A stretch of DNA of 64,000 nt, taken from Caenibius tardaugens NBRC 16725 (GTDB taxonomy: Bacteria > Pseudomonadota > Alphaproteobacteria > Sphingomonadales > Sphingomonadaceae). The notes beneath the pieces are model-generated. The model was given only the letters and a program-made list of their open reading frames with translations, did no database searches and had not been told where the DNA came from. A program made the position numbers and the translations under genes. The DNA lies in NCBI RefSeq assembly GCF_003860345.1, contig NZ_CP034179.1, positions 1,178,001 to 1,242,000 of the forward strand, written 5' to 3'. Every line of letters starts with the position of its first letter. Within the stretch, counting starts at the first letter, position 1. Of the stretch, positions 4,771-43,971 are shown one piece after another.

Positions 4771-4801
4771 TGATCAGCCATTGTGTACCGCCATCGGCCA
4801 C

Positions 4802-4830: not shown

Positions 4831-4848
4831 CCGTCTCTATACCCTGCC

Positions 4849-7525: not shown

Positions 7526-7545
7526 CGCTTTGCAGAAAAGACGAT

Positions 7546-11680: not shown

Positions 11681-11929
11681 ATGAAAATCTATCTTATTGC
11701 ATTGGGTGCCGGGCTACTGGCAGGCTTTGTCTATAGCCTGCTCGGCGTCCGATCCCCTGCCCCGCCGGTTGTCGCGCTCATCGGCCTGGCCGGGATTTTG
11801 CTGGGCGAACAGATCGTCCCCATCGCCAAAAGACTGTCCGACCGTGCCGAACTGGCCCGTTATGTTCGCGACAATTGCGCGCCGCAGATCCTGGGCACCC
11901 CCACCCCTCCTGCGGAGCATGATTCATGA
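11681..11929 (+). CDS. XapX domain membrane protein
   Basis: An 82-residue protein with two hydrophobic helices and the XapX signature (GLLAGFVYSLLGVRSPAPPV, then LAGILLGEQ). Such small proteins are found near purine/xanthosine-type or amidohydrolase genes, and their function is unknown. The start at 11681 follows GGGAGGA. The stop overlaps the amidohydrolase start (ATGA), so the two are coupled. The 169 bp before it hold no gene. Confidence 0.85.
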   Translation: MKIYLIALGAGLLAGFVYSLLGVRSPAPPVVALIGLAGILLGEQIVPIAKRLSDRAELARYVRDNCAPQILGTPTPPAEHDS

Positions 11930-29335: not shown

Positions 29336-31133
29336 AACCCGTACGTTTGCACACCGCTGGACATTGCTGCTTACCATGGCTCTGGCTGTGCCGCACCCCG
29401 CAGTCGGCGAGGAACAGGCAGCGGCAGGCCGCTTCATCACCGTGTCTGTGGTGGGCACCGACACCACGCGGAAAAGCGGCATCCCCCAGCCGGACAAGGC
29501 CGCACGCATCACGGTCAGCCTGCGCGATCCGGCCAGCGGCTTTGCCATGGGCGGGGTGGGCGTGGCCGCATGGATCGTCCCCGATGACGGGCAAAGCTGC
29601 GAAGACTGGTACGCCCGCGTCGGGCGGGTGGGCGAACTGCCCGCCAATGTCATCCCGCTGCTGGGTTTCGACATCGTACAGGCGACACAGGACCATCGGC
29701 TGGCGCTGGTCGATCCGCTGCTGGACCTTGCCAGCGCCAATATCCGTTCGGTGACGACGCTCCCCGCCCCGATCAAGGCGTGGAGCGTGGCCGCCGACGG
29801 GCAAACGCTGGCCATTATCGATGCAGCGACAGGCGCATTCTCGCTGATCGAACCGGCTTCGGGAAGCGTCCACCCTGTCGCCTTGCCTGCGCCGGTCCAT
29901 GCATTGGCAAGTGATGACAAGGGCTTCTGGGCAGGGTTGGACAATGGGCAGGTGCTGGCGATCAGCCCCGATGGGACTCTCGCCCCCGTTCTGCCGCTTG
30001 GGCAATCGCCTGTCATGATTATCCCCGCCCCTCTGGCAGAACCCGTGGCGCTGTCTGCCGATGGCCACGCACGCCGGTTAGGTTCTGCCGAGGGGCCTGC
30101 CATAACCTTCCCCGGCCCGGTTCGCGGCGGGGCAATTGCGCCGCTGGCTAACAGCCTGTTCGCCTTGTCGGAAGACGGGCAGCACCTTTATGTTACGGAC
30201 CTCGATAATCCCGAGACCTCCGCCCGCATCGCCCTGGGCTTTCCTGCGGACCGGATCGCGGCCAATCCGTCAGGCCGATGGATTGCCCTGGCAGACAAAG
30301 CGGGCGCAACCATCGCTATCCTCGACACGCAAACCATGCGGGTGCGCTGGACCATCGCCATGCCCGATCCGGTGGTGGAAATGACGTTCAGCGATGCCTT
30401 TCTCTATTTGATGCATCGCCATCAGGGCGGCGTTACCCGGGTGATCTTTGATCCTGACGGATCGGCCCCGGGCCTCGCCGCCATTGCCGCCGGGGTTGCT
30501 TCGGATGAACCCCAGACGGCCGGGCCTCTGCCCCGGCTGGTGCGCATTCCCGCTGGGGGTGTGCTGGTGGCCAGCAACCGGGAACGGCGCGCCTATATCG
30601 TATCGGAAAGCGGCGCACAGGCGGCCATGGCCATGGTTCCTCTGCGCGCCGGGCTGACCGCCGGAGTGGTCATCCGCCAGCGGGGCATGCTGCCCGGTGC
30701 CACACGCGGGACCTATACCGGGCGGTTTACCGCGCCCGCCGCCGGATCGTACAAAGCGATTATCCGCACGGATGCGCCCGAAATGCTGCAATGCCAGAAC
30801 TTCACTGTCGGTAGCCCCTCACCACGGCAAATCGCCACTGCAAAGCCTGCGCAACCTGCATCGGGCGCGATGTCCGCCACAGTCGAAGGCAATGCCATCC
30901 GCATCCGGCTCTCCGGTGGTGTGGTCAGCGCATCGCGCGCCATGCTGATGCACCCGGGTGGCGGATGGCGGCAATTTCTCACCCCTGACAAGACCGGAAC
31001 GGACGTGATCCTGCCCATGCCTCAGCCATTGCCCCCGCCCGGCCCCTATCAGCTTTACGTCGAAGTCACGCGCGCTGACGGGGCAAGCGAAACGCTGAAT
31101 ACCACCCTTGACTGGAAAGGCCCCCAATCATGA
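29328..31133 (+). CDS. Secreted beta-propeller-like protein of the oxidase operon
   Basis: A 601-residue protein with a signal peptide (cleavage near PAVGEE). After an N-terminal domain of ~95 residues come repeated ~40-residue units resembling propeller blades (WSVAADGQTLAIIDAATG, ALASDDKGFWAGLDNG, ANPSGRWIALADKAGATIAILD). A C-terminal immunoglobulin-like part ends with YQLYVEVTRADG. The repeats fit YVTN/WD-like propellers, though exact blades were not aligned. The start at 29328 overlaps the oxidase stop by 8 bp; an earlier in-frame ATG at 29298 would lie deep inside the oxidase gene. It may serve as a scaffold or partner of the oxidase. Confidence 0.7.
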   Translation: MTETRTFAHRWTLLLTMALAVPHPAVGEEQAAAGRFITVSVVGTDTTRKSGIPQPDKAARITVSLRDPASGFAMGGVGVAAWIVPDDGQSCEDWYARVGRVGELPANVIPLLGFDIVQATQDHRLALVDPLLDLASANIRSVTTLPAPIKAWSVAADGQTLAIIDAATGAFSLIEPASGSVHPVALPAPVHALASDDKGFWAGLDNGQVLAISPDGTLAPVLPLGQSPVMIIPAPLAEPVALSADGHARRLGSAEGPAITFPGPVRGGAIAPLANSLFALSEDGQHLYVTDLDNPETSARIALGFPADRIAANPSGRWIALADKAGATIAILDTQTMRVRWTIAMPDPVVEMTFSDAFLYLMHRHQGGVTRVIFDPDGSAPGLAAIAAGVASDEPQTAGPLPRLVRIPAGGVLVASNRERRAYIVSESGAQAAMAMVPLRAGLTAGVVIRQRGMLPGATRGTYTGRFTAPAAGSYKAIIRTDAPEMLQCQNFTVGSPSPRQIATAKPAQPASGAMSATVEGNAIRIRLSGGVVSASRAMLMHPGGGWRQFLTPDKTGTDVILPMPQPLPPPGPYQLYVEVTRADGASETLNTTLDWKGPQS

Positions 31134-31735
31134 CCCCCCCGCACCCGGGCGGCCTTACCCGACGCAGCGTTGTGACAGGCGCGCTGGCCGCCGCGTTCAT
31201 ATCAGGCGTCAGCCCATCCAGCGCCATGGCCGCCAATGCGCCTGCAGCCCGTTTCCCGGTGCGGCTGCGCGACATGATGGTCACCGATGCGCGTTCGCGC
31301 ACCCGCTTCATGCTGCTGCGCGATCTGGTGCGGGATCGGGTGGCCGTGATCAGTTTCATGTTCACCGGATGCTCCACAATATGCCCGATGCAGGGCAACC
31401 TCCTGTCCGGCGCGCAAAAGCGATTGGCCCGCGAGATGGGTGAAACCGTAATCTTCGCCTCCGTCTCGATCTCGCCGCTGACCGATACGCCCGAAGCGCT
31501 GGTCCAGTTTGCCAACACCTATGCCGCAGGGCCCGGATGGCATTTCCTGCGCGCTGGCGTGCCCGAAACCCAGCGCTTTCAGGAAGGGTTCGACGGCCTC
31601 GTGCCCCGGATCGAAGATCACCCGCCGATGATAGCCATCGGCCGCACCAGCAATGCAAGCTGGAGCAGGCTGTACGGTACCCCTTCCCCCGCACAGATTG
31701 CCACAGAAGTGCGCCGATGGCTTGCCCGCGCCTGA
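31130..31735 (+). CDS. SCO1/SenC family copper chaperone
   Basis: A 201-residue exported thioredoxin-fold protein. The copper-binding Cys81-x3-Cys85-Pro (TGCSTICP) and the distal His164 (EDHPPM) expected of SCO proteins are both present. A twin-arginine-like signal (LTRRSVVTGALAAA) precedes them. SCO proteins deliver copper to, or reduce the cysteines of, copper sites, classically CuA of cytochrome oxidase. Here the obvious client is the multicopper oxidase of the same operon. The start overlaps the previous stop (ATGA), and the end overlaps the next gene by 19 bp. Confidence 0.9.
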   Translation: MTPPHPGGLTRRSVVTGALAAAFISGVSPSSAMAANAPAARFPVRLRDMMVTDARSRTRFMLLRDLVRDRVAVISFMFTGCSTICPMQGNLLSGAQKRLAREMGETVIFASVSISPLTDTPEALVQFANTYAAGPGWHFLRAGVPETQRFQEGFDGLVPRIEDHPPMIAIGRTSNASWSRLYGTPSPAQIATEVRRWLARA

Positions 31736-32928
31736 CTTTTCCCCTTCGCCTGCTGTGTGTGGCGCTGCCACTCCTGTTCGCCGCCCAGGCCGATGCAGCA
31801 GGCGATGATCCCGCCATTGCCATCGGGCGCGATATCTATGAACGGGCACTTGGGCATGACCCAATCGCCGTGAGATTCGCTGGCGGAGACTGGATGCCCG
31901 CCGCACCGGGGCATGCCTGCCGATCCTGCCACGGCGATTCCGGTGAAGGGGGAAGCGAAGGGACGATCGTTGCCCCCGCACTGCCTCCGCTTGCCGCCAA
32001 GGCCGGTGATCGCTGGTCCGTCTGGCTGGATAACGCCCTGCGCCGCCACAAGGGGCTGAATGGACAGCCCCTGAATGCCGGAATGCCGGAATACCAGCTT
32101 TCGCCATCGGACAAGGCCAGTCTGGGGGCTTATCTGCGTGCCTTGCCGCAAGTGGACGTGCCCGGCGTCAGCGCAGACACCGTCACCATTGGGGTCACAT
32201 CCCGGAATGCCGGCCTCAGTCCCGCAGGGCTCAGAATGCTCTTTGCGGAACTCGACAAGCTGGCAGTTTCCATCAACGGACAGGGCGGGATATTCGGGCG
32301 TCGCATACGTTTTTCCGAACAATCCGGGGCTATTGATGCCTTGCTCAATCTGGTGTGGAGCCGCGACGGCACGACATCGGAGCCCACATTGACCATACAG
32401 CCTCTTGAAAACAACGTGACCGGAGGCCCCATTTGCGGCGCTCTCGATCCTGCCCAGGCGGACCGCACGCGCACCCTGATCAGTTGGAGCGAGAAACAGG
32501 GAATGCCAGCCGCCATAGCCGGTGAGAGCGGTGAGATTGCGGGAAAAGCGATTGTCATCCCGCACGACTACACGATCACATCAGAGCAAATGTCTGGAGC
32601 AAGCGTGGTCTATGTCCCGGCGGAGATCGCCAAACGCTGGCCCCCGGCCATGCAAGCCGGCCATGTGCGGATCTTCGCACCGGGCGACCTCGCGAAACGA
32701 ACCGCGTTGGCGGCGACCTTGATCGATGAAAATGCCGCCAACCCACGCGATGCTCTGGTCGCAGGCATCTATCTGGAAGGCGTCACCCTCATTGTCGATG
32801 CACTGAAAGACACGGGTCGGCGTATTCGCCGAATGGGTTTTTGCGATACATTGCGCAATCTGTCGCGCGCCCGGCAATCGATCTCGATCATTACCGAAAA
32901 CGACGTCCTCGTCACTCCAGTGGAGTGA
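31717..32928 (+). CDS. Cytochrome c domain fused to a periplasmic-binding-protein-like domain
   Basis: A 403-residue exported protein. After a signal peptide (to ~residue 28), one class I cytochrome c domain has the heme site Cys68-Arg-Ser-Cys71-His72 and the likely axial Met123 (NAGMPEY). From ~residue 155 the sequence changes to one like branched-chain amino acid receptors (VTIGVTS, then INGQGGIFGRRIRF), running ~250 residues. I know of no common family with this combination. MofC of the Leptothrix mof operon is also reported as a heme protein beside a giant oxidase. A likely role is electron acceptor for the oxidase with a sensing or docking module. The ATG lies inside the SCO gene. Confidence 0.75.
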   Translation: MACPRLTFPLRLLCVALPLLFAAQADAAGDDPAIAIGRDIYERALGHDPIAVRFAGGDWMPAAPGHACRSCHGDSGEGGSEGTIVAPALPPLAAKAGDRWSVWLDNALRRHKGLNGQPLNAGMPEYQLSPSDKASLGAYLRALPQVDVPGVSADTVTIGVTSRNAGLSPAGLRMLFAELDKLAVSINGQGGIFGRRIRFSEQSGAIDALLNLVWSRDGTTSEPTLTIQPLENNVTGGPICGALDPAQADRTRTLISWSEKQGMPAAIAGESGEIAGKAIVIPHDYTITSEQMSGASVVYVPAEIAKRWPPAMQAGHVRIFAPGDLAKRTALAATLIDENAANPRDALVAGIYLEGVTLIVDALKDTGRRIRRMGFCDTLRNLSRARQSISIITENDVLVTPVE

Positions 32929-33436
32929 GGACAAGAGGTATCACGCCCCGGGGCAGCGAGGCAGCCCCAGACTTACCCCTTTCAATTGAAAGGCATAGCG
33001 AATCGCAATTCGCTGCAGACCCTGCCAATGCCAAGGCACCAGGGATCGTCATTATTGTTCGCGACATGATGGGAAAATTTCCAATACTTGTAATAATGCG
33101 AATTTTATCGTCCAATTCTCGGCAACATCATGGACGACAGGTGTGTCGAAAGAAAATTTCAGACCGCCTCGAATTTGAAGGACAAAATATCGATATATTT
33201 AAGATACATAAGAACACTTCATATACACCAACCTCAACAGAAGGCTTATGAGCGCCAGCGCGATGAGGGGCGGTCCGTGCCAAAAAAGCGGCCATCAGAG
33301 TGTCGCGATTACTCCAGATCCCCTTATCGTACTGGAATAGAATAGTAATTTGTGTTTATTTGATCATCTTACGAGCTTACCATTCGTCATGACGGGTCCG
33401 CGCGGTTGTTGTTTAGCTGATTGGGGACGTCAATTC
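32929..33436. other. Intergenic region, AT-richer than its surroundings
   Basis: About 510 bp after the oxidase operon. Open frames exist, but none has a ribosome site or recognisable protein character. It should hold the operon terminator and the promoter of the LuxR-type gene. No clear hairpin with a T-run was found. Confidence 0.5.
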
Positions 33437-34087
33437 ATGGATGCACTGCATTCGAGCACCACTGGGGGGCCGACCAAAGGGGCTGATGGGGATGATTTCA
33501 GTAATCTTCCGCTCACGGTATTGCTTGATCAGTCGATCGTGGCAGTCGAACGGATTCTGACCTGCTGGTCATTACTGGACGCACGCCCACGTTTGATTAT
33601 CAAACGGAATCGCAATCTCGTAGCCTGCTGCCAAAGCACGCAAGCCATAATTGCGGCGGGCGATTTCCTCCGGTTGGAGCGTGGACGGGTCACTACGGCT
33701 CATGAGAAGGATTTCGCGAGGTTCGCGACTGCGGCGGCGGCACCGACGCATGAAACGATCACCGTGCTCTTGCGACATGGTCGCGACGATGCGCACATGA
33801 TCGTTCGCGCAATCGCCATCAATGATGATCTGGTTTGCCTGTCGTTACAGAATGCCAGTGGGGAACACGCCATCAGATTGCCCGATCTGAAGATCGCATT
33901 CCGTTTGACGCAGAGCGAGGCCCGCATCGTGCAAGATCTTTGCAACGGCCTCTCCCCCCAGCAGATCGCCGTTCGAAACAGTATTTCCATACATACTGTC
34001 CGCGCCCACCTGCGGCGATGTTATGACAAGCTGAATATCACCAATCGCGAACAACTCTGGCACCGTTTAAGCGCCTATCAGATGTAA
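33437..34087 (+). CDS. LuxR-type DNA-binding regulator
   Basis: About 216 residues. The C-terminal ~60 residues form a LuxR/GerE helix-turn-helix (LTQSEARIVQDLCNG, QQIAVRNSISIHTVRAHL, YDKLNI). The N-terminal ~145 residues lack a receiver Asp pattern and a clear autoinducer domain; they could be PAS-like. The frame is open to 33350, but the ATG at 33437 has GGGGA nine bases upstream. It sits alone between the oxidase operon and the amyloid operon, both on the same strand, and is a candidate regulator of either. Confidence 0.8.
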   Translation: MDALHSSTTGGPTKGADGDDFSNLPLTVLLDQSIVAVERILTCWSLLDARPRLIIKRNRNLVACCQSTQAIIAAGDFLRLERGRVTTAHEKDFARFATAAAAPTHETITVLLRHGRDDAHMIVRAIAINDDLVCLSLQNASGEHAIRLPDLKIAFRLTQSEARIVQDLCNGLSPQQIAVRNSISIHTVRAHLRRCYDKLNITNREQLWHRLSAYQM

Positions 34088-34403: not shown

Positions 34404-34889
34404 ATGTTCCGGTTGAGCGTGTCGAAGGCAATGCCAGGCAAAGGGTTCTGTGCAAACGTCGCAGCGGTTGCTCTGGTGATGTCAGTTGCAACCCCCGCAA
34501 TGGCAGGTGAAGGCGATTCCGATGTTCCGCCGGGCAGCTTCATCTATCAGCGTGATGTAGGGCCCCGCGCCGCCGAAGACCCTGGTGTACCGGGCAAGCC
34601 CTCCTACGTCGTTCTCGGCGGCAAGGACGTTATTTTCAGCGCACTGGGGCTTCAGCCTCTGAGCGATGCCGAACAGGCGCAAGTCACTGCGGCGCTGGAT
34701 CCCCGCAAAAACATCGTTTCTGACACCGTTGGGGCCGGTCTCGATATTCTCACATCCGATCGCGCAGGCACGCAGGCTTCGCTGAACGGCGAACACGGTG
34801 GCTATGTCGGAGATACGATCAGCGGCGCAATGAGTGTGGTCCCTGCCGCGATGGGCGCCTTGCGGACTGCCCTTGGAGTAGACCGGTGA
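34404..34889 (+). CDS. Secreted protein of unknown function, first gene of the Fap-like operon
   Basis: A 161-residue protein with a signal peptide (cleavage near TPAMAGE). The mature part of ~127 residues is small, polar and Gly/Ala-rich, with no amyloid repeat and no Cys. In Pseudomonas the first gene, fapA, encodes an exported protein of about 150 residues that affects subunit assembly. Position and length fit, but I see no sequence motif that proves homology. A GGGGG tract lies seven bases before the ATG. The stop overlaps the next start (GTGA). Confidence 0.6.
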   Translation: MFRLSVSKAMPGKGFCANVAAVALVMSVATPAMAGEGDSDVPPGSFIYQRDVGPRAAEDPGVPGKPSYVVLGGKDVIFSALGLQPLSDAEQAQVTAALDPRKNIVSDTVGAGLDILTSDRAGTQASLNGEHGGYVGDTISGAMSVVPAAMGALRTALGVDR

Positions 34890-35575
34890 TCCGCCCCCGT
34901 ATCACGCTTTCGGGCGCCATGATCTGCGTGGCGTGGAGCGTTATCGGTGCGCCGCAGCTTCATGCGCAGAGCACTGCCACGGCTGTGCAGGACGAAGTGG
35001 TCGTGACGGGGGCGCCTGAAGAGCCAGCCCCGGCCACCACGCCCGTTGCTGCAGCAACGGCAGGCACGGCTGACGCGGTCCCCGCCATTGCGGGGGTCAG
35101 CGGGAGGCTTGCCGTCAATCTTGCAAGCGGAATCGGCAATCAACAGATCAACGGCGCCGTTATCGCAATGGGCGAAACCGCGCTTGCCAGCGGCGTGGCC
35201 GCGCAGATGATGCTGGGCACCGACGACAGCGACCGGGCCACGCGGATCGCGCTGGAAGGTGATGCCTTCTCCCGCGTGTCCGGCATGGCCAGTATCAATA
35301 TAACGGCAGGTGCCCACAACCAGTCGGCAAACCTGGCCGTTCTTTCCCTTGGCAATCAAGAGGCGCTTTCGGATCAACTGCTTTCGCAGTCGCGCGCCTC
35401 GATCGAACCGAGCGGGTCCACTGGGGGCACCGGGGACCGGAATGACACCATCGAGATTGGTGGAAACACATTCCGGGACAACAGCGGACTCATCCAGGTC
35501 AACCTGATCGGCGGCGAGAGGAATTCCTCCGCCAACGTCTTCGTGCTGAGCGTGCTCGACGAAGAAATCCCTTGA
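34886..35575 (+). CDS. fapB: Fap-type amyloid subunit, FapB-like
   Basis: A 229-residue exported protein with a signal peptide ending QLHAQ, then a Pro/Ala-rich stretch. Three imperfect repeats of the Fap type follow, starting at residues ~73, ~133 and ~201: GRLAVNLASGIGNQQIN, SINITAGAHNQSAN and IQVNLIGGERNSSAN. The pattern G-x-V-N-x-A-x-G-x-x-N-Q-x-x-N is the hallmark of FapB/FapC fibre subunits. Three repeats separated by variable linkers also match them. The shorter of the two subunits in second position corresponds to FapB, the fibre nucleator. The mature protein has no Cys, unlike Pseudomonas subunits with a C-terminal CxxC. Start is GTG. Confidence 0.75.
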   Translation: MIRPRITLSGAMICVAWSVIGAPQLHAQSTATAVQDEVVVTGAPEEPAPATTPVAAATAGTADAVPAIAGVSGRLAVNLASGIGNQQINGAVIAMGETALASGVAAQMMLGTDDSDRATRIALEGDAFSRVSGMASINITAGAHNQSANLAVLSLGNQEALSDQLLSQSRASIEPSGSTGGTGDRNDTIEIGGNTFRDNSGLIQVNLIGGERNSSANVFVLSVLDEEIP

Positions 35576-35599
35576 TGATGTGTAGGAAGGAGATGGACG

Positions 35600-36625
35600 A
35601 TGAAATATCTGCTTTTGAGTGCAGTCGCGGCTTCGGCAATGCTTGCCGCAAGCCCCGCATACGCCAATCGTGATCGAGACCATGGTTCCGATATTGATGT
35701 CAATTATGAGAACAATATCAAAACCAGCATCGTTACCGATGTAGCCTATTACAAAGACGTCGCACTGGAAGGCACGGTCAGCCTCGAAGGGACGATCTCG
35801 GTCGACAGTTCAGCTGTTGCCGTGACGGACGTCAAGCAACTGTCCGGGCTCAACAACGTAACCTATCGCGAAGAAAATGAGCTGAATGGCGAAAATGGCT
35901 ATGTCAGCGATATTTTCGGACCGGGATGGAGCGAAGCCGGCAACGATCCCAACGACAACCTGACCAATGGGGTTCTCGAAGGGGCGATCCGTGTCGGCTA
36001 TTTCGCGCCGATCATCAATACAGTCGATGCATTCGATGTGAGCGGCGCCGGCAATATCGGGGTCAACCTGTCCGCCGGTTACTACAACATGCAGATGAAT
36101 TCTGCGACGCTGGCTTCCTCCAGTGTCCAGGACCCGGACGCCTCGGGTGGCTGGTCAGAAGCATCGACCACGTCGCTGCAAATGCTGGTGGGGACCTATC
36201 AGTATGGGGCAGAAACCGACGTTCTGCCGGAAGATGATCCGACAGATGGCGGCGGCGGCAACAACTTCCGCGATCGTAATACGGTCATGGGAGGCGCGGT
36301 ATCGGGCGATGGCAACATCGGCATCAACGCGGCGGCTGGCAGCTTTAACCAGCAGGCCAACCTGCTGACTCTGGCTGTCGCAACCGATGCGGCGCTGGCC
36401 GAAGCCAATTCCGGCTTGCTGCAAATCGCCGTGTTTAATGGCGTCGAACAGCAGGACAGCATCAACACCGTCGGCACGCTGACCATTGCGGATGCGTCGG
36501 GCAACATCGGCGTCAACATGGCGGCCGGTGTCGGCAACCAGCAGTTGAATTCGCTGACGATCGCAACCTCGCTGGCCAGCGGTGGTGGTGACGGCAACGG
36601 AGGAGGCGGCGGCGACGGCAGCTGA
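35600..36625 (+). CDS. fapC: Fap-type amyloid subunit, FapC-like
   Basis: A 341-residue exported protein with a signal peptide ending SPAYA. Three clear amyloid repeats: GNIGVNLSAGYYNMQMN (from 151), GNIGINAAAGSFNQQAN (238) and GNIGVNMAAGVGNQQLN (301). They are separated by long linkers rich in Asp, Gly and Ser. The repeat wording is very close to the GNxGVNxAAGxxNQQxN of Pseudomonas FapC, the main fibre protein. The C-terminus is a Gly/Asp tail. No Cys anywhere, so the CxxC known from Pseudomonas is missing. AGGAAGGAGA gives a strong ribosome site, as expected for an abundant subunit. A stable hairpin follows the gene. Confidence 0.85.
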   Translation: MKYLLLSAVAASAMLAASPAYANRDRDHGSDIDVNYENNIKTSIVTDVAYYKDVALEGTVSLEGTISVDSSAVAVTDVKQLSGLNNVTYREENELNGENGYVSDIFGPGWSEAGNDPNDNLTNGVLEGAIRVGYFAPIINTVDAFDVSGAGNIGVNLSAGYYNMQMNSATLASSSVQDPDASGGWSEASTTSLQMLVGTYQYGAETDVLPEDDPTDGGGGNNFRDRNTVMGGAVSGDGNIGINAAAGSFNQQANLLTLAVATDAALAEANSGLLQIAVFNGVEQQDSINTVGTLTIADASGNIGVNMAAGVGNQQLNSLTIATSLASGGGDGNGGGGGDGS

Positions 36626-36634
36626 CCTGATGCC

Positions 36635-36680
36635 TTTGGGAAGGGGATGACGTCGCTCCCTTTGTCCTCCCCTTCCCAAA
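36635..36680 (+). promoter_or_regulatory. Intercistronic hairpin between fapC- and fapD-like genes
   Basis: A perfect 13-bp inverted repeat (36635-36647 with 36668-36680) has a 20-nt loop and lies 10 bp after the fapC-like stop. No T-run follows, so it probably acts as a partial terminator or as an RNA-stabilising element that keeps subunit message above that of the export genes. Confidence 0.65.
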
Positions 36681-36698
36681 CTTTCCCTTCGAAGAACG

Positions 36699-37460
36699 AT
36701 GCAACAAGCAGGTGCGGAAATGTCCGAGCAGGCGCGATACAGGCAGATCAGAGGCGCGGGGTCACCCGTGCTTGCCCTGATCATGCTCGCCCTGTCGGGC
36801 TGTGTAACGGCACCCGATCAGCCCGCACCGATATGGCTGAGCCAGACATCCGAAGGTGCGCCGATTATCGAAAAGCAGGTGACCAGCTGGAAAGCGCTCA
36901 AGTTCAAAGATATTGTCAGGCAGCGCACTGATTTCAGCTGTGGGGCTGCCGTCCTCGCCACGATGTTCAACAAGGCGTTCGGATACGAGACCACGGAACA
37001 GCAAGTTCTCGTCAACATGCTGAAGATCGCCGATCCCGACGTCGTGCGGGAAAAAGGCTTCTCGTTGCTGGATATGAAGAACTACGTCCGCAACGTCGGC
37101 CTGGATGCAGAAGGATATCGGCTCAATTACGACGCGCTCGCCAAACTGCAGGCACCATCGATCGCGCTGATCAATATTCGCGGCTACAAACATTTCGTGA
37201 TCGTGCGGAAAGTCTTTCCCGATCACGTCGCCGTGGGTGATCCGGCGCTGGGTAACCGGCTGATGACACGCCGCGATTTCGAAGCGGCGTGGAATGGCGT
37301 TGCCTTCATCATGATGGGGCCAAGTTACAACCCCGCCAATGTACTGCTCGATCCGCCGGAACCCCTGTCCGCCAAGCGGCTGCTGGAACTCCACGCGGTC
37401 CTGCCGGGCGCGGAGACCGCCGAATTCGGCTTCGGTCCCGCCTATCAGTTCAGATTTTAG
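36699..37460 (+). CDS. fapD: C39-fold peptidase lipoprotein, FapD-like
   Basis: A 253-residue protein. A lipobox (ALSGC, Cys35) suggests a lipoprotein. The C39 papain-like domain then shows Cys81 (DFSCGAAV), His165 (YKHFVIV) and Asp181 (GDPALG), a complete catalytic triad. FapD of Pseudomonas is a C39-family protein required for fibre export, and double-glycine bacteriocin peptidases share the fold but are fused to ABC transporters. No transporter is present here, and the neighbours are amyloid subunits and a FapF-like barrel, so FapD is the best name. A start at 36720 is possible. Confidence 0.85.
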   Translation: MQQAGAEMSEQARYRQIRGAGSPVLALIMLALSGCVTAPDQPAPIWLSQTSEGAPIIEKQVTSWKALKFKDIVRQRTDFSCGAAVLATMFNKAFGYETTEQQVLVNMLKIADPDVVREKGFSLLDMKNYVRNVGLDAEGYRLNYDALAKLQAPSIALINIRGYKHFVIVRKVFPDHVAVGDPALGNRLMTRRDFEAAWNGVAFIMMGPSYNPANVLLDPPEPLSAKRLLELHAVLPGAETAEFGFGPAYQFRF

Positions 37461-37470
37461 GAGGCCCACC

Positions 37471-38412
37471 ATGTTCAGAAACACTTCTGGCCAGACATCG
37501 GGCAAGACGATGCGAAGGCATGCGGCAAGTGTTCTGCTGCTGTCTGCCAGTGCACCGCTGCTGATGGCGGCCTTACCCTACGAACGGGTTCTCATCGACG
37601 ATGATGTGCCGGTTGTCGGCACACGCCTGGGCACAGGCGGCATCGCGCAAACCCCCGTCATACCTACCTGGCGCCCCGCCATGGACAGGCTTGGAACACG
37701 CCTCGCCGATGTCGAACTGAGCGAGATGCGGGGCAAGTATATCACCCCCGATGCCGTGTCGTTCTTTGGCATTTCGATGCTGACGAGCTGGCAGGACCAG
37801 AACGGCGTGACGACTGTGGCCCGGCTGGCCTTCAACGTCGAATTCACGCAGCCGCCGGGCAGTTCGCAGCCCGTCCCGCAAGTCCTGGTCAACTGGGTTC
37901 GCGAAGGCGATCCGGGAATGGACGTGCGCGGCGTTTCCGATGGCTATGTCGCGCTGACATCCAGCCCGGATCAGGTACTGCCGGTCGGCGCGCTCGATAC
38001 TCTCAACGGGGCAGGTCAGGTCAATGTGATTGCCGGCGCCGACAATGCGGTTGGCAACACCATGCGGATCGCGATCGTTCCGCGCAGCGCGGTGACCGAT
38101 ATGGGAACGTCGGGCATGTCTCCGCTGTCCGCAACGCAAAACCACACGTTTGACGATGGCGATCAGTTGCAGTTCCGCGTGGCAGACAACCAGATCGGCC
38201 TGATCATGACCGGCGGTCATGGCACGGACAGCACGATGCAGATGGTAGGTGGGGATCTTGGGCAGATGCTGCAGCAAACCATCCTCAACAGCGACCAGAA
38301 CCACGTTCTGAACAGCGCCTCGATCGTGTTCGGTGTGAACACGTCCGTGCGCAATCTCGATCAGATCAATGCGGATGGCGCATTGTCAGCCATGAAGGGG
38401 TTTGGCTTTTGA
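37471..38412 (+). CDS. fapE: FapE-like exported protein
   Basis: A 313-residue protein with a signal-like hydrophobic segment (residues ~15-32). The conserved-looking block LSEMRGKYITPDAVSFFGISMLTSW lies near residues 80-105 and resembles the start of FapE proteins (an R-G-x-Y then F-G-x-x-M pattern). FapE is an extracellular minor component of Fap fibres. The protein contains a short repeat-like stretch, AGQVNVIAGADNAVGNTM, reminiscent of the subunit repeats. An AGGAGG ribosome site 11 bp after the fapD-like stop fixes the start. Longer than Pseudomonas FapE (~235 residues as I recall). Confidence 0.7.
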   Translation: MFRNTSGQTSGKTMRRHAASVLLLSASAPLLMAALPYERVLIDDDVPVVGTRLGTGGIAQTPVIPTWRPAMDRLGTRLADVELSEMRGKYITPDAVSFFGISMLTSWQDQNGVTTVARLAFNVEFTQPPGSSQPVPQVLVNWVREGDPGMDVRGVSDGYVALTSSPDQVLPVGALDTLNGAGQVNVIAGADNAVGNTMRIAIVPRSAVTDMGTSGMSPLSATQNHTFDDGDQLQFRVADNQIGLIMTGGHGTDSTMQMVGGDLGQMLQQTILNSDQNHVLNSASIVFGVNTSVRNLDQINADGALSAMKGFGF

Positions 38413-39026
38413 TATGGGGTAAAACGCTAGTCATCCGGGGGATGGCAATCGTCGGAATTGCAGCCATGGCCACAGGTTCTCCGATGGTCAGCGCGCAGCA
38501 GGCACCCGTCCATCAATTCGCGGTGGAAGGTGCGGGGCGTGTCAGTTGCAAGCAGTTCACGGCTTTATACAAGGATCAGAAATCTACAGATTATCAGCAT
38601 GTCATGGGGTTCGTGGAAGGGTACCTGACTGCGGCCAATCGGTACGAACCGAATACCTTTGACCTGACCCCATGGCATAACGCCGTCGCATTGGGGCTCA
38701 TCCTCGAAAAGCACTGCGGTGCCCATCCCGACGAAACGCTGGTCAGCACATTGCAGCGCATGGTCACCAGCTTCCGCCCGATCCGGGTGGCGAGTTTTTC
38801 GAAGTTGGTGGAAGTGGGCGACGACAAGAAGCGCACGATTGTTTACGACGCGGTGCTCAAACGCTCGCAGGCGGCGCTCCGAAACAAGGGACTCTATCAG
38901 GGTCCAGAGGACGGAATCTACACGCCCACGCTGCGCGAGGCATTCAAAAAATTCCAGCAACAGAAAAGCCTGCCTGCATCCGGACTGCCGGACCCGGCAA
39001 CGCTGTGGACCTTGTTGAACCCCTGA
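38409..39026 (+). CDS. Exported peptidoglycan-binding-domain protein within the Fap-like operon
   Basis: 205 residues. The N-terminal half (VSCKQFTALYKDQ to HCGAHPDETLV) resembles small Rap1a/HdeA-like domains with two Cys. The C-terminal ~55 residues are a PG_binding_1 module (LRNKGLYQGPEDGIYTPTLREA, FQQQKSLPASGLPD). The frame starts with TTG at 38409, overlapping the fapE stop. This gives a proper signal peptide with Lys/Arg before the hydrophobic core, whereas the ATG at 38442 would lack positive charge. I know of no counterpart in the Pseudomonas fap operon. It may anchor the export machinery to the cell wall. Confidence 0.75.
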   Translation: MIWGKTLVIRGMAIVGIAAMATGSPMVSAQQAPVHQFAVEGAGRVSCKQFTALYKDQKSTDYQHVMGFVEGYLTAANRYEPNTFDLTPWHNAVALGLILEKHCGAHPDETLVSTLQRMVTSFRPIRVASFSKLVEVGDDKKRTIVYDAVLKRSQAALRNKGLYQGPEDGIYTPTLREAFKKFQQQKSLPASGLPDPATLWTLLNP

Positions 39027-39074
39027 CGGGGCAAATGGCAATCGCGCCGTAACGGCGCAGGAGGGAGAAGGACC

Positions 39075-40457
39075 ATGACCGGACTCAGGATCACCAGATC
39101 GACCGCTGCAATCCCGCTATGCGTTGCCATGTTCACCTTGTTAAGCGAACCCGTGGCGGCGCAGGACGCAACCAGCCCGGTGGACGGAACCGGCAAGAAC
39201 GTCGCGACCGAAGTGTCGCAACTGCGGGCCAAAGTCACCGAACTGGAACAACAGCGGGCCGAAGCCATCGAACGCGTGGACGATTTGCTGGCGCGTGTGG
39301 AAATGCTCGAAATGCGCCTGGAAGCCGTACCGATTACCGAAGGGGAAGCACTGGCCATGCGGGGCCGATATTCGGCACCCACAACCCGCGCCGTCCCGGC
39401 TGATCCGGCCTTTTCCTACTGGCAAGGGGAAACCCCGCAGCAGGGGCTGCAAGGATCCAGTGGCGCTCCGGGCCGCGAGGAGACAGATGATCGCAAAGCG
39501 CCTGCCCCGACCGAAGCCGTGGTGGAAGTGGCGCAGCAACGGCAAGGCCGGTTCGGCGATCGTGTCGGGCTGGAACTGGGCCTCGATTACAGCCATTTCG
39601 ATAACGCCCGGATCAATCTGAACGGGTTTCTCGCGCTGGATGCGATTTTCCTCGGCACCATCAGCATCGATCAGGTCACGGCCGATATTTTCTCGGTCAC
39701 GCCAGCCCTGCGCGTGGGGGTGACGGACCGTCTGATCGTCAGCGCGGAAATGCCCTATCTCTACCGGATATCCAATTTCCGCTCGGGCGGTGCGGGCGGC
39801 AATGCCAGCGGACTGGTGGAGAAGACAGTACGTTATGACGGCTTTGGCGATATGACGGCGGGGGCCAGCTATCGCCTGTTCCGCGAAACCGCAGGCAGGC
39901 CGGATCTGGTGATCAATGCCCGGGTCAAGGCACCCACTGGCAAACATCCGTTCGGTGTCGAACTGATCGAAGTCGAAGGCAGCCAGGGCAACCTGTCCGT
40001 CCCGAGCCGCCTATCTACCGGATCGGGCGTCTGGGGCATGTCGATCGGCCTGTCCGCCCTCAAGACGATCGATCCGCTGGTCGTATTCGGCAGCCTGACC
40101 TATTTCCGGAATTTCCAGAAAGGCTTCAAGGATATTGACGAAGCTGAGGGCATGCAGCCCGGACGCGTCGATATCGGCGACGCATTTCAGGTGGGCGCGG
40201 GTGTGGCCTTTGCCCTGAACGAGAAATCCAGCATCAGCCTGTCCTATAATCAGAGGCTGGTGCAGCGGACCCGCATTCGCCGGGTGGGCGAGGACTGGCG
40301 CAATATTATCGGCAGCCAGGCCAATGTCGGCTTTGTGAACATCGGCGCGACCTTCTCTCTCGGCCGCCACCTGTCGTTGATCTCGACCGTGGGTGTCGGC
40401 CTGACCGAAGATAGCCCCGACCTGGCTGTCAGCGTGCGCTTGCCTTATCGCTTCTAG
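39075..40457 (+). CDS. fapF: FapF-like outer-membrane secretion channel
   Basis: A 460-residue protein. A signal peptide ends PVAAQ; residues ~43-86 form a heptad coiled coil (VSQLRAKVTELEQQ, RVDDLLARVEMLEMRLE). A Pro-rich linker follows, and from ~160 alternating hydrophobic strands form a beta-barrel ending in LPYRF. FapF of Pseudomonas has exactly this design: an N-terminal coiled-coil region gating a barrel that secretes FapB/C/E. The GGAGGGAGAAGGA ribosome site is very strong. It is the last gene of the operon. Confidence 0.8.
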   Translation: MTGLRITRSTAAIPLCVAMFTLLSEPVAAQDATSPVDGTGKNVATEVSQLRAKVTELEQQRAEAIERVDDLLARVEMLEMRLEAVPITEGEALAMRGRYSAPTTRAVPADPAFSYWQGETPQQGLQGSSGAPGREETDDRKAPAPTEAVVEVAQQRQGRFGDRVGLELGLDYSHFDNARINLNGFLALDAIFLGTISIDQVTADIFSVTPALRVGVTDRLIVSAEMPYLYRISNFRSGGAGGNASGLVEKTVRYDGFGDMTAGASYRLFRETAGRPDLVINARVKAPTGKHPFGVELIEVEGSQGNLSVPSRLSTGSGVWGMSIGLSALKTIDPLVVFGSLTYFRNFQKGFKDIDEAEGMQPGRVDIGDAFQVGAGVAFALNEKSSISLSYNQRLVQRTRIRRVGEDWRNIIGSQANVGFVNIGATFSLGRHLSLISTVGVGLTEDSPDLAVSVRLPYRF

Positions 40458-40590
40458 GCCGTGGAGAGACGCGACCCTCCCCAAAAAAAAGCTCATAGAT
40501 GAATTATTGCATCGCTGTTTCGTTTATGTAAGAATTTGCTTGCACTTCAGGCGCAGCGATCGCGAGGGCACAAAGGGGAGGAAGGCGCAT

Positions 40591-41460
40591 ATGGCCCTGA
40601 CCACCACCCACGGGCAAATCTGCACGGCAACCGTACGCGTGCACGTATACAATTATCAGTACGACGGGGATGGCCCCTATGTGCGGCAATCTCCCGCCGA
40701 TGTCCTAGCCCTGTTTGCCGCGCCTCCGAAAAATGCGATGGGCAGTTATCGCCGCGCAATGGAAACATCAGCCAGAGTCCCGCTCGGCCAAATGATGATT
40801 GTGCCCGCCCACACCGCCATTCAGGCAACCGGAGATTTCGGCGAACAGCGGCTTGCGACATGCACGATGCGGAGGCTCCTGCCAGACGATTTCGACATCG
40901 ACGACATCACACGGCAACGCGCCTGTGGCGATCTTCGCGAACCCAATATCCTGGCAGGAATGCAGCGACTGATCAGCGAGGCCCTGCAGCCCGGCTTCGC
41001 GTCCGACGTGCTCATCGATGGCCTGACCCGAACGCTTCAGGCTGATCTGGCGCGGCATTTTTCGGGCAGCGCATCTACGCTGCATTCCAAAATGGAGGCA
41101 GTGCATAGTGCGCTTGCCCCATGGCAATTGCGCAAGATTGAAAGTTTCACCAGCGAAGCGCAAGGATCACCCGTGCGCGTGGCGGCATTGGCCAACGAAG
41201 TCGGTCTCAGCCCCGGCCACCTGATGCGGGCCTTTCGCCAGAGCACGGGGCAGACGGTCCATGAATTTGTCGAACAGGTCCGCGTGGCCCGCGCCCGCGC
41301 CCTGCTTCTGGATACCGACAAGCCCATAAAACAGATTGCCGATCTCCTCGGCTTTTCCTCACCCAGCAGCTTCACGCTCGCATTTCGCCGCGCGACCGGG
41401 GAAAGCCCCGCCCGGCTCAGACGCAAGAGATCGGATGGTTTCGGAGAACCGGAGCAATAA
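40591..41460 (+). CDS. AraC family transcriptional regulator
   Basis: A 289-residue protein with a C-terminal double helix-turn-helix (ALANEVGLSPGHLMRAFRQ, then IKQIADLLGFSSPSSFTLAFRR) at residues ~195-280. The N-terminal domain (~170 residues) has no clear cupin motif. The ATG at 40591 follows GGGGAGGAAG; the frame is open upstream to 40507 without support. It precedes the TonB receptor and the P450 operon on the same strand, and probably activates them. Confidence 0.9.
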   Translation: MALTTTHGQICTATVRVHVYNYQYDGDGPYVRQSPADVLALFAAPPKNAMGSYRRAMETSARVPLGQMMIVPAHTAIQATGDFGEQRLATCTMRRLLPDDFDIDDITRQRACGDLREPNILAGMQRLISEALQPGFASDVLIDGLTRTLQADLARHFSGSASTLHSKMEAVHSALAPWQLRKIESFTSEAQGSPVRVAALANEVGLSPGHLMRAFRQSTGQTVHEFVEQVRVARARALLLDTDKPIKQIADLLGFSSPSSFTLAFRRATGESPARLRRKRSDGFGEPEQ

Positions 41461-41676
41461 CCTGCGCGCTGCATCGCTGCCCGATCACACCGGAATGTGC
41501 GTTTCGGAACACGATGTTCGATTCCGAATAAACACGTCCATCCCATCATGCCTGCGTCAGTGTTAGCCAGACCTCCTGACTGACCAATGACGCATGCCCG
41601 AAATGCATGCCTGCGCACGCACCGCGGCCAAAGGCAATAAACAGGAACGGGGCATGCCCATTCGAGGGAGGGTGCA

Positions 41677-43971
41677 ATGCTTACAGGCAAACACATATGG
41701 GCGAGTTTACTGATCAGTCCCGCCATTTTCGTCTTTTCTTCCCCAAGCCATGCGCAAAACGCGGAAGACAGCACGGGAAAGTTGCAGGACATTGTCGTCA
41801 CCGCACGCCGCACGTCCGAACTGCTGCAAAATACGCCGGTTTCTGTAACAGCTGTGCAAGGGCAGACGCTCGACAGGCTCAACATCATGGACGTTCAGGC
41901 CGTCCCGCAGCTGGTCCCCAATATCACCTTGTCGAAAGTGACCGCCAGCCCATCCACTGCGGCGATTTTCATTCGCGGGATAGGGAACACCGAATCGTCG
42001 CTCGTTTCGGAACAGGGAGTCGGGATCTATCTGAACGGGATCTATATCGCCCGATCGGCGACAGCCATTTTCGATCTGATCGACGTTGATCGGATCGAGG
42101 TGATGCGCGGCCCGCAAGGCACGCTGTTCGGGCGCAATTCCGTCGGTGGCGCGATCCAGCTGGTATCGAAGGTTCCTTCTCAGGACATGCACGGAGAAGT
42201 GAAAGTCGGTTACGGCACGAATAACGACTGGTTTTCGCGCGCGCGCCTGGAAACGGGGGAATTCGGGCCATTCCGGGCGGCCATCACTTATATGCATCAC
42301 CAACGGGATGGTTACGTCAACAACCACCTTACCAAAAAATCGCGCGACCCCGGCTTCCTGAACAGCGATTCCCTGTTCGCATCGCTGCACGGCGACTTCG
42401 GCAAGCTGACCGCTGATTACAGTTTCGATTACGACAATCGCCGGGGACAGGGATCGCTGGCTCAGATTGTCGCATCAACGGCAGATTTTTATAACTACTT
42501 CAGCCAATCAGAAGCATTGGGCGGTGCCCCGTTCCTGTTCGGTCCGGGGCGGCGCAGCGAAGGGCTGCAGGAAGGCGATATTGACCGGAAAGGCCGCTAT
42601 CGCACGGATACCCGCGCGACCATACAGGGGCATGCGCTGACTTTGGCTCTGGAAGTCAGCCCTGCCCTGACGCTCAAATCCATCACCGGTTATCGACGCT
42701 TCCGGCAGGATCAGGTTGTCAATGTGTCGGGCAATGCGCTGCTGAAGGGGATCGTGTACGATCCCGTTACCGATACGGCATCCATCCAGCCGGTCACGCC
42801 CTACAACAACACCGCCGAAGGCCATCACCGCCAGTTCAGTCAGGAACTGCAGGCGCTGGGCCAGATCGGCGACCTTAGCTACGTTCTGGGAGCATACTAC
42901 TTTCACGAGAAGGCACGCGAAGCGTTATACCAGAAGCTGACGTTCGTACTGCCCGGTGGCGGCGCGGGCGTGAACCTGAACCCGGTTCAGGCCTATGGCG
43001 GCACCACGCGCTCCACCGCCGCTTTCGGACAAGTCAGCTGGAAGCCTTCGGCGCTCGACGAACGGCTCGAAGTGACAGGCGGACTACGCTACACGTCGGA
43101 CAGGAAAACCATCCTGCTCACAGGCGACGTGCCGGATCTCACCGGGCGCAAATCTTTCCACAATCTGTCCTGGCTGGTGTCCGCATCCTACAAGTTCACC
43201 CCCGATGTTCTGGGCTATGTCCGGGTATCGACCGGGTATCGCGCCGGTGGCCTCAGCCCACGGACAAGCTTTCTCAACCCGTTCAAGCCCGAACGCGCGA
43301 CCGCCTACGAAGTGGGCCTCAAGACGGAACTGTTCGATCGCAGACTCCGCCTGAACCTGGCCGGGTTCCTGACGCAGTATCGCCAGTTGCAAATCAATCA
43401 GTTCAAGGCCGATGCCGGTGGGGCGACCACGCTCACCGTCAATGCCGGGAACGTCAATTACAGCGGGTTCGAGGCGGAATTTACGGCCATCCCGGTGAAC
43501 CGTCTGACACTGGATGGTTCGATCGGTTACACCCACGCCCATTTCAAGACGTTCTATTACCGTGATCCGCTCAGCAATGACCTGATCAACGTGGCCGATG
43601 AAGCGCGCATGCAGCAGGCCGCCAAAGTGAACGCACATATCGGCGCCCAGTACGTTGCTCCGCTCCCGTTTGGGCAACTGCTGGCCCGGGTCGATTTCAG
43701 CTATCGCGGCAAAGTCTATTACGGATCGCTGGACCGGGCCGCGCAGTTCAACCACGCTGTCAAATCGCCGCCGGACTACAACCTCAGGGCGCGTCTCGCG
43801 GTCACGGACATCGCGGTCGGCAGCGCCAAGCTGGAAGTGGGCGTGTGGGGTGACAATCTGACCAACGACAAGAATGTCGAATATGGTGTCGACTTCGGTT
43901 CGCTGGGGTTTGGCCTCGTCACTTACAAGCGCCCACGCTCCATCGGAATCGATACACGGATCGGGTTCTGA
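41677..43971 (+). CDS. TonB-dependent receptor of the catabolic region
   Basis: A 764-residue receptor with a signal peptide (SPSHAQ), DIVVTARRT at the plug start, IRGIGNTE and EVMRGPQGTLFGRN in the plug, and a barrel ending in TRIGF. A GAGGGAGGG ribosome site precedes the ATG. The gene lies 43 bp upstream of the alcohol dehydrogenase-P450 operon. It therefore probably imports the substrate of that operon. Confidence 0.9.
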   Translation: MLTGKHIWASLLISPAIFVFSSPSHAQNAEDSTGKLQDIVVTARRTSELLQNTPVSVTAVQGQTLDRLNIMDVQAVPQLVPNITLSKVTASPSTAAIFIRGIGNTESSLVSEQGVGIYLNGIYIARSATAIFDLIDVDRIEVMRGPQGTLFGRNSVGGAIQLVSKVPSQDMHGEVKVGYGTNNDWFSRARLETGEFGPFRAAITYMHHQRDGYVNNHLTKKSRDPGFLNSDSLFASLHGDFGKLTADYSFDYDNRRGQGSLAQIVASTADFYNYFSQSEALGGAPFLFGPGRRSEGLQEGDIDRKGRYRTDTRATIQGHALTLALEVSPALTLKSITGYRRFRQDQVVNVSGNALLKGIVYDPVTDTASIQPVTPYNNTAEGHHRQFSQELQALGQIGDLSYVLGAYYFHEKAREALYQKLTFVLPGGGAGVNLNPVQAYGGTTRSTAAFGQVSWKPSALDERLEVTGGLRYTSDRKTILLTGDVPDLTGRKSFHNLSWLVSASYKFTPDVLGYVRVSTGYRAGGLSPRTSFLNPFKPERATAYEVGLKTELFDRRLRLNLAGFLTQYRQLQINQFKADAGGATTLTVNAGNVNYSGFEAEFTAIPVNRLTLDGSIGYTHAHFKTFYYRDPLSNDLINVADEARMQQAAKVNAHIGAQYVAPLPFGQLLARVDFSYRGKVYYGSLDRAAQFNHAVKSPPDYNLRARLAVTDIAVGSAKLEVGVWGDNLTNDKNVEYGVDFGSLGFGLVTYKRPRSIGIDTRIGF

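Follow-up and report, generated by a model that had tools for sequence, protein, structure and literature searches.

Does a run of seven genes in the sphingomonad Caenibius tardaugens NBRC 16725 encode a functional amyloid of the Fap type and, if so, what does it add to what is known about Fap? The genes lie in the order fapA-B-C-D-E-(extra gene)-F, all in one direction and all with open reading frames, at positions 34404-40457 of the window (the whole stretch of DNA that was analysed, 64,000 nucleotides), that is, within 6.1 kb. It is very probable that this locus is a divergent Fap biogenesis operon of a sphingomonad lineage. All six Fap proteins, FapA included, match NCBIfam Fap models, with E-values from 8.5e-5 to 1.8e-104, well past anything that chance would give, and FapC and FapF also match solved proteins. 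This bears out an earlier note on this DNA, which had proposed a fap operon with a FapE-like protein and the Pseudomonas gene order, and had named profile searches with FapB, FapC, FapD and FapF as the check (Table 1). fapA, which that note did not name, is present as well, so that all six components of Pseudomonas fapABCDEF are found in the same order. Further points of likeness to the Pseudomonas system are the three repeats of FapC, which follow the published motif, the C39 triad, and a FapF barrel homologous over residues 144-460, whereas the differences are an extra gene for a probably HdeA-like, peptidoglycan-binding protein between fapE and fapF, the lack of CxxC, a motif in the FapF linker, and scores below the NCBIfam cut-offs. 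None of the six window proteins reaches its curated equivalog cut-off. In a draw across the phylum, FapE is matched in 21 genomes, only 7 of which score above the cut-off of that model, so this threshold excludes most divergent systems. The window system is therefore filed as a divergent Fap system and not as an NCBI equivalog, and it is from the sequences that we infer the functions of its genes.

Table 1. Features of the fap locus and its neighbourhood in window coordinates; bits are given against the curated NCBIfam cut-off, and for fapD and fapE a later ATG was chosen as the start.
Feature	Position	Strand	Evidence
LuxR-type (GerE) regulator gene, TTG start per ORF list	33350..34087	+	Pfam GerE 2.4e-10
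fapA, FapA homologue	34404..34889	+	NCBIfam chaperone_FapA 8.5e-5, 22.9 bits vs 110
fapB, predicted minor amyloid subunit, GTG start, three degenerate repeats	34886..35575	+	NCBIfam FapB 1.5e-19, 70.4 bits vs 190
fapC, predicted major amyloid subunit	35600..36625	+	NCBIfam FapC 1.2e-17, 64.6 bits vs 195; PDB FapC match
FapC repeat 1 core, GNIGVNLSAGYYNMQMN	36050..36100	+	Direct reading; invariant columns in alignments
FapC repeat 2 core, GNIGINAAAGSFNQQAN	36311..36361	+	Direct reading; DNA repeat D1; invariant columns in alignments
FapC repeat 3 core, GNIGVNMAAGVGNQQLN	36500..36550	+	Direct reading; DNA repeat D1; invariant columns in alignments
Hairpin between fapC and fapD, 17-nt arms, 12-nt loop; candidate attenuator or mRNA 3'-end stabiliser	36635..36680	+	Inverted repeat I2
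fapD, C39-family peptidase, predicted lipoprotein (LSGC), triad C/H/D	about 36720..37460	+	Pfam C39 5.4e-21; NCBIfam FapD 6.8e-67, 225 bits vs 330
fapE	about 37471..38412	+	NCBIfam FapE 1e-19, 70.7 bits vs 250
Leader-like motif in FapE, LADVELSEMRGKY, candidate FapD recognition site	37702..37740	+	Pattern and cross-trained matrix
Extra gene, probable HdeA-like N-terminal and PG_binding_1 C-terminal domain, TTG start	38409..39026	+	Pfam PG_binding_1 1.1e-10
fapF, predicted coiled coil, linker and outer-membrane beta-barrel exporter	39075..40457	+	NCBIfam FapF 1.8e-104, 349.9 bits vs 700
Leader-like motif in FapF, in the linker that follows the coiled coil, ITEGEALAMRGRY, second candidate FapD site	39333..39371	+	[IMLV]RG aligned column

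Fap genes in sphingomonads are already known. A 2013 survey placed Fap only in Beta-, Gamma- and Deltaproteobacteria, and the earlier note regarded a sphingomonad version as an extension of the range; this was rejected as the main finding because a 2018 review names Erythrobacter, Porphyrobacter and Novosphingobium, all sphingomonad genera like the carrier of the window operon, as having Fap (PMC6173800). The passage of that review on the three genera mentions neither a gene-level description nor the extra gene. A 2025 review with a GTDB survey reports Fap in many Pseudomonadota families and in other phyla. What seems to be new are the details of the extra gene, a leader-like motif, a hairpin after fapC and a LuxR-type neighbour. 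As a natural variant, the sphingomonad lineage makes the cut site of FapD testable, and also the question of whether a periplasmic helper anchored to the cell wall takes part in Fap export in addition to FapA.

Comparisons were made across 30 distinct sphingomonad loci and 14 loci from outside the class. The former exclude L023, L025, L026, L028, L029, L030, L033 and L035, taken as copies of L094, L078, L090, L084, L099, L082, L080 and L081, respectively, as their contigs are equally long. The latter are wide stretches from 14 of the 18 genomes with a FapE match (G802, G885, G949 and G979, represented by 3.7-kb loci only, were left out of the counts) and include the near-copies L071, L075 and L076. 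They provide 13 FapE proteins, because L074, whose FapE match holds a TAG, has no FapE frame, and 11 FapC proteins, because three of the loci have no gene labelled FapC. Counted apart were L061, from another alphaproteobacterial family, and L037 and L062, which are FapD-FapF pairs without FapB/C and do not count as Fap operons. The order ABCDE-extra-F is found in 28 of the 30 sphingomonad loci; L077 appears as BACDE-extra-F, an effect of its FapB frame, whose first start is upstream of fapA, and in L090 the contig ends inside fapC. In a FapD and FapF tree made by a quick method, the 30 loci form one clade (SH-aLRT 96), and L061 groups with the loci from outside the class (92, long branches, not starred). 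This tree does not support a single shared ancestor of all alphaproteobacterial Fap.

The earlier note described three repeats of the form GNIGVNxAAGxxNQQxN in each of the two subunits. For FapC this stands, best in repeats 2 and 3, but it is literally true only of FapC because the FapB repeats are degenerate (e.g., INITAGAHNQSAN and VNLIGGERNSSAN). The three FapC repeats are kept in relatives and match the published motif GN-G-N--aG--NqQN (PMC12392863), with NMQMN in place of NqQN in repeat 1. An alignment profile of FapC matches PDB FapC entries 9nqd (1.5e-17) and 9u4u (2e-17). The predicted FapC model has low confidence (mean pLDDT 60.6); among PDB entries, it best matches the FapC fibril 9u4u (E 5.5e-7, TM-score by target 0.53). 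As the note had also observed, the subunits have no CxxC: FapC has no Cys at all, and the single Cys of FapB lies in its signal-like N-terminus. The missing CxxC was considered as a lineage marker and rejected, as CxxC occurs in just 2 of the 11 FapC proteins from outside the class. FapA is a periplasmic chaperone in Pseudomonas; the sphingomonad FapA profile finds a gene adjoining fapB in 9 of the 14 outside-class loci.

The proposed C39 lipoprotein with a complete triad and the coiled-coil plus beta-barrel FapF are also borne out. The FapD triad C81/H165/D181 (253-aa numbering) is conserved in all 47 aligned FapD rows, and the window protein, a predicted lipoprotein, carries the lipobox LSGC. 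A lipobox pattern is present in 24 of the 30 sphingomonad FapD proteins, missing from the other 6, and present in 4 of the 14 from outside the class. The FapF barrel matches PDB FapF 5o65 over residues 144-460 (E 2.9e-76), preceded by a heptad-like region judged by eye in the alignment as the coiled coil. FapE matches no solved structure at E <= 1.

What FapD cuts was called unclear in 2017, in a study in which its active-site Cys was required for FapC secretion and in which the N-terminus of FapE, and perhaps the FapF linker, appeared to be processed (PMC5557850). A 2025 review describes FapE and FapF as the thought targets of FapD and gives no site in that account (PMC12822426). The sequences of the window lineage may point to where the protease cuts. 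A leader-like pattern occurs in all 30 sphingomonad FapE proteins, with H replacing R in three. The first matrix made from it was trained partly on rows that it scored, and cross-trained matrices serve as the independent version. With a matrix from sphingomonads only, the motif is found in all 13 outside-class FapE proteins (shuffle p <= 0.005) and also in L061 and L062, and an outside-trained matrix finds it in 30 of 30 sphingomonad FapE proteins. For FapF, [IMLV]RG stands at the aligned column in all 24 sphingomonad proteins placed in that alignment; the outside-trained matrix finds the motif in 17 of 30 at shuffle p <= 0.01 and misses it in 13. With the same matrix and threshold, control proteins give 0/29 for FapA, 2/29 for FapB, 2/30 for FapC, 0/30 for FapD and 0/30 for the extra protein, whose best site holds RG in 11 of 30 loci, never at a significant score; with the partly self-trained matrix, 5 of 29 sphingomonad FapB proteins also score at p <= 0.01. 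None of the 14 outside-class FapF proteins has a site at p <= 0.01, and the FapF motif is absent from L061 as well, which excludes a universal role for it as a FapD site. The motif shared by FapE, within and outside the class, and the sphingomonad FapF linker is a candidate FapD site. FapD might cut FapE and, in the sphingomonad lineage, the FapF linker at LxxxELxxMRG(K/R)(F/Y), which would open or recycle the FapF pore; the chances of this appear to be about even.

The strongest alternative is that the MRG motif is an element for binding or folding and not a cleavage site, which is a serious possibility, although somewhat less than an even one. The evidence for cleavage at MRG is sequence resemblance to C39 leaders, and the second glycine of a double-glycine leader is Lys or Arg in most FapE proteins here. 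The 2017 account favours GG/GA motifs, noting no canonical C39 sequence there, and estimates that about 70 N-terminal residues of FapE went unseen, more than the leader-like motif would give (PMC5557850). Against this alternative, the motif is found in the very two proteins for which processing has been reported or suspected (PMC5557850, PMC12822426). Near-canonical RGG forms, LSNEELADLRGG and LSDDELGEARGG, are present in FapE and FapF of the relative L062. The motif is also similar to the double-glycine leader pattern.

The extra gene, also pointed out by the earlier note as that of a peptidoglycan-binding protein, lies between fapE and fapF in all 30 sphingomonad loci and in L061, and in none of the 14 loci outside the class. 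Its C-terminal domain scores 41.9 bits with PG_binding_1 against a Pfam gathering score of 23, and the model matches 16 of 16 family members at the E-value used. The N-terminal domain is predicted to be helical, has two invariant Cys and probably resembles HdeA periplasmic chaperones: hhalign gives 97.8% with the intermediate L119 and, on repeating the comparison without it because of circularity, 81.3% (a small set of six and five proteins, respectively), whereas 20 column-shuffled controls give at most 2.2%. It differs from the HdeA family in its fusion to a peptidoglycan-binding domain. Pfam HdeA matches only 8 of the 16 family members (best E 0.0033; the window protein is not among the matches listed), and the HdeA-like folds retrieved by Foldseek are not significant (E 0.93-3.1). 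A literature search found no paper combining HdeA, a peptidoglycan-binding domain and amyloid. The protein is conserved, probably binds the cell wall and is a candidate helper. Together with FapA it might prevent FapB and FapC from aggregating in the periplasm close to FapF, a role that is conceivable for the extra protein but not the favoured expectation.

That the gene is instead an unrelated cell-wall hitch-hiker without a Fap role is improbable. Its family does occur without fap, in 4 of 27 genome-contig loci, including one on a contig of just 4.1 kb, and in 3 of the 6 matches of near-full length from a 398-genome draw across the phylum, but its constant place in the sphingomonad loci and L061, and the overlap of its frame with the fapE stop in the window, speak against a hitch-hiker. 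On a broader and rather doubtful proposal, the HdeA-like/peptidoglycan-binding protein would be a periplasmic holdase, tethered to the wall, that serves surface proteins prone to aggregation. In alphaproteobacteria it would have become the seventh component of Fap, whereas in other places it would be a neighbour of surface proteins of the exosortase type (PEP-CTERM or VPLPA-CTERM). On the same proposal, FapD would recognise a degenerate double-glycine leader (LxxxELxxMRG) in every FapE examined and in the sphingomonad FapF linker. As the leader would stand in both proteins, one protease would mature both the export adaptor and the pore.

Of the 30 sphingomonad loci, 21 have a hairpin after fapC (folding z <= -2) and the remaining 9 have z > -2, and outside the class 10 of 11 loci have one; after any other gene except fapF, the same threshold is reached in at most 2 of 29-30 sphingomonad loci. 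These counts come from folding against dinucleotide shuffles, single-base shuffles having been used in a first pass. The window hairpin has no clear T-run, and in L061 hairpins follow not only fapC but also fapE and the extra gene. No description of the hairpin was found in a literature search. Its occurrence both in the class and beyond it points to a common means of setting the ratio of subunits to machinery. Judging from its conserved place, it would lower downstream expression or stabilise the message upstream and thereby yield more subunits than machinery, which on balance appears probable.

Transcription of the operon may be controlled by the neighbouring LuxR-type regulator, a homologue of which, on the same strand, precedes the operon by 68-499 bp in 23 of the 27 distinct sphingomonad loci with upstream DNA. 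A sigma-70 promoter scan gave no excess over shuffles (4 vs 3.6). The curli regulator CsgD is also of the LuxR family. The curli (csg) system has a similar outline, with nucleator, major subunit and exporter, but differs from Fap in its subunit repeats and its exporter, and no Csg models are among the listed matches of the window operon proteins. The Fap proteins, whose N-termini look signal-like by eye, would be exported by Sec. By homology with Pseudomonas, FapB would nucleate FapC into a stacked three-repeat cross-beta fibre at the cell surface for attachment and biofilm formation. The predicted fibres of the window system would probably serve biofilms.

A decayed or silent operon that no longer makes fibres is very unlikely. 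The operon is sporadic, occurring in 15 of 298 family genomes (15 of 16 family matches are counted because L037 and L062, without FapB/C, are set aside), and none of the three same-genus genomes listed has a FapE match; nonetheless, the seven frames are open, the catalytic triad is intact, and the repeats and motifs are conserved. Least credible of all is a non-amyloid relative, that is, a FapD/FapF-type protease-exporter pair for a different surface protein, like Fil or the L037 and L062 pairs: FapD and FapF do match the FilB and FilC models, but FapA, FapB, FapC and FapE are all present, FapC matches a solved amyloid, and the Fap models fit better (225 vs 114.8 bits for FapD over FilB, and 349.9 vs 66.4 bits for FapF over FilC).

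The seven genes of the operon, which overlap or are separated by short gaps on the single contig of the source genome (4,358,096 bases), are best described as a divergent Fap system, because of the homology of every component and the gene order. NCBIfam Fap models match six of the products; none of the six window proteins reaches the curated equivalog cut-off, and the name "NCBI equivalog" is therefore unsuitable for this system. Window FapF matches the solved FapF barrel (PDB 5o65, E 2.9e-76), an alignment of FapC finds the two FapC sequences with solved structures (E 1.5e-17 and 2e-17), and the predicted FapC model, itself of low confidence, has the FapC fibril 9u4u as its top PDB match (E 5.5e-7; second match 4.6e-2). 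Three repeats had been claimed for each amyloid subunit: those of FapC agree with the motif derived, according to the text available of PMC12392863, from a GTDB-wide survey, whereas those of FapB are looser than claimed. The C39 triad reported for FapD is intact in 47/47 aligned rows, including that of the window, and the gene list was otherwise correct but left a FapA homologue unnamed. The functions given here to all components are sequence-based predictions.

Locations of the fap operon and of related features, with NCBIfam matches of the products
Feature	Location	Strand	Remark
fap operon (fapA-B-C-D-E-extra gene-F)	window 34404-40457	+	seven genes
FapA			NCBIfam E 8.5e-5
FapB			NCBIfam E 1.5e-19
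FapC			NCBIfam E 1.2e-17
FapD			NCBIfam E 6.8e-67
FapE			NCBIfam E 1e-19
FapF			NCBIfam E 1.8e-104
Extra (seventh) gene	window 38409-39026	+	between fapE and fapF
Hairpin, 17-nt arms	window 36635-36680		3' of fapC
Upstream genes	window 29298-32928		
Downstream genes	window 40507-43971		
Tandem fap arrays	L063 (G749:C78), 2736-12266		single genome
FapD-FapF pair	L037, 5205-8050		
FapD-FapF pair	L062, 4984-8554		
Second C39 peptidase match, host genome	G000:C1:500740-501090 (L002)		
HdeA-like/peptidoglycan-binding genes without fap	L100-L102, L114-L116, near 9.0-9.9 kb		
HdeA-like/peptidoglycan-binding gene without fap	L103, 212-871		

The earlier note was right about the observation and the name, but wrong about the range. 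Although a 2013 survey (PMC3792158, as far as its text was available) confined Fap to Beta-, Gamma- and Deltaproteobacteria, a fap operon in a sphingomonad is already known and not new, because Erythrobacter (printed "Erythobacter"), Porphyrobacter and Novosphingobium are named as carriers in the accessible part of the 2018 review (PMC6173800), and that of the 2025 review (PMC12822426) places Fap across many Pseudomonadota families and other phyla. The FapE model matches 16 of 298 genomes of the host family, 15 carrying the operon, in one case truncated by a contig end, and one carrying a FapD-FapF pair only; it matches none of the three same-genus genomes listed. Draws from the class and the phylum gave matches in 5/385 and 21/398 genomes, respectively, three in each case belonging to the host family. 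Within the class draw, one genome (G419) has the set B-C-D-E-extra-F and another (G443) a D-E-F set without FapB/C. Alphaproteobacterial FapD-FapF pairs without FapB/C occur at L037 and at L062, the latter with a short FapE-like protein. One genome carries tandem arrays, B-C-D-E and B-C-D-E-F, and a third, weak FapE match within a FapB gene; two clusters per genome were found in only three genomes in the survey of PMC12392863, as excerpted.

Three features make the operon noteworthy: a seventh component and a hairpin, both conserved, and a candidate FapD recognition motif that can be put to the test. The extra gene, whose product carries, as previously noted, a peptidoglycan-binding domain (Pfam), sits between fapE and fapF in all 30 distinct sphingomonad loci compared (the window and 29 others) and in L061, from another alphaproteobacterial family; it was found in 0/14 outside-class Fap loci, searched within 14-20 kb per locus. 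The N-terminal half of the protein contains two invariant cysteines and is predicted to be helical (mean pLDDT 78.7). Pfam HdeA matches 8/16 family members (best E 0.0033), and profile comparison with six HdeA proteins gave 97.8%, or 81.3% (E 1.2e-5) without an intermediate sequence; the highest value among 20 column-shuffled controls was 2.2%. With Foldseek, the peptidoglycan-binding half was matched at E 1.8e-2 at best, and folds resembling HdeA appeared only at E 0.93-3.1. The protein is probably an HdeA-like domain on a wall anchor and may act as a holdase. It is no substitute for FapA, since FapA was found in 29/30 loci, the remaining one being cut within fapC.

This combination of two domains is also found where the DNA covered has no fap genes, at 4/27 genome-contig loci (L100-L103, L103 on a contig of only 4.1 kb) and in three outside-class genomes (L114-L116). 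Judged by eye, a neighbouring gene in 7/7 of these loci encodes a protein with an exosortase-signal-like C-terminus, which suggests, from these few loci, a helper for exported surface proteins in general. NCBIfam sorting-domain cut-offs were exceeded by two of the five neighbours scanned (L103, VPLPA-CTERM; L115, PEP-CTERM, on the opposite strand); support was weak for L100 and absent from the scan for L114 and L116, and the L101 and L102 C-termini were assessed by eye only.

Double-glycine leaders follow the pattern LSxxELxxIxGG, which LADVELSEMRGKY, in the N-terminal part of window FapE, fits bar a few positions, Lys replacing the last glycine. A leader-like pattern is present in 30/30 sphingomonad FapE (His for Arg in three); a matrix trained on these finds it in 13/13 outside-class FapE, L061 and L062 (shuffle p <= 0.005), and an outside-trained matrix finds it in 30/30 sphingomonad FapE. 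Directly after the coiled coil, window FapF has the similar motif ITEGEALAMRGRY, as do sphingomonad FapF generally, with [IMLV]RG at the aligned column in 24/24 rows aligned. With the outside-trained matrix, 17/30 sphingomonad FapF reached p <= 0.01, whereas each of five control proteins did so in between 0 and 2 of 29-30 loci; a mixed-trained matrix detected 21/30 FapF, but also 5/29 FapB. None of 14 outside-class FapF has the motif. At L062, leaders in both the FapE-like (LSNEELADLRGG) and FapF-like (LSDDELGEARGG) proteins are near-canonical. Because the rows are homologous, such counts are not independent trials; the case for a candidate FapD site would rest on the cross-class FapE match, together with the resemblance of the motifs in two proteins that are unrelated. 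In the text available of PMC5557850, FapC secretion requires the FapD cysteine, the FapE N-terminus appears to be processed, the FapF linker perhaps too, no canonical C39 sequence is seen, and the FapD target is called unclear; FapE and FapF are thought to be FapD substrates in the corresponding part of the 2025 review. The host genome has a second match to C39 peptidases, located within a 718-aa open frame that is unlinked to fap.

Folding energy was scored in 80-nt windows after each gene, with a threshold of z <= -2. This was reached after fapC in 21/30 sphingomonad and 10/11 outside-class loci, and after fapF, the operon end, in 6/29 and 8/14. For each of fapA, fapB, fapD, fapE and the extra gene, between 0 and 2 of the 29-30 sphingomonad loci reached it; outside the class, none of 9-14 loci did so after fapA, fapB, fapD or fapE. 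L061 has a hairpin after each of four genes: fapC, fapE, fapF and the extra gene. By eye, the position is kept while the sequence varies widely among genera. A terminator-like T-run follows the hairpin in some relatives; that of the window has no clear T-run. A fapC hairpin or terminator is unmentioned in the available text of PMC3684753 and PMC3792158, and no such report was among the papers listed by a literature search.

Of 27 sphingomonad loci with upstream DNA, 23 have a co-directional LuxR-type gene ahead of the operon, three have only a weak opposite-strand match and one has none; the 14 outside-class loci gave no match within the stretch examined. Fap operons are described as lacking a CsgD-equivalent transcription factor in PMC3684753, as excerpted. 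Downstream of window fapF, an AraC-family regulator and, after it, a TonB-dependent-receptor-like gene (the latter by reading only) were left out of the operon. Upstream lie genes for an exported propeller-like protein, an SCO1-like protein and a cytochrome-c-domain protein, assigned by reading only.
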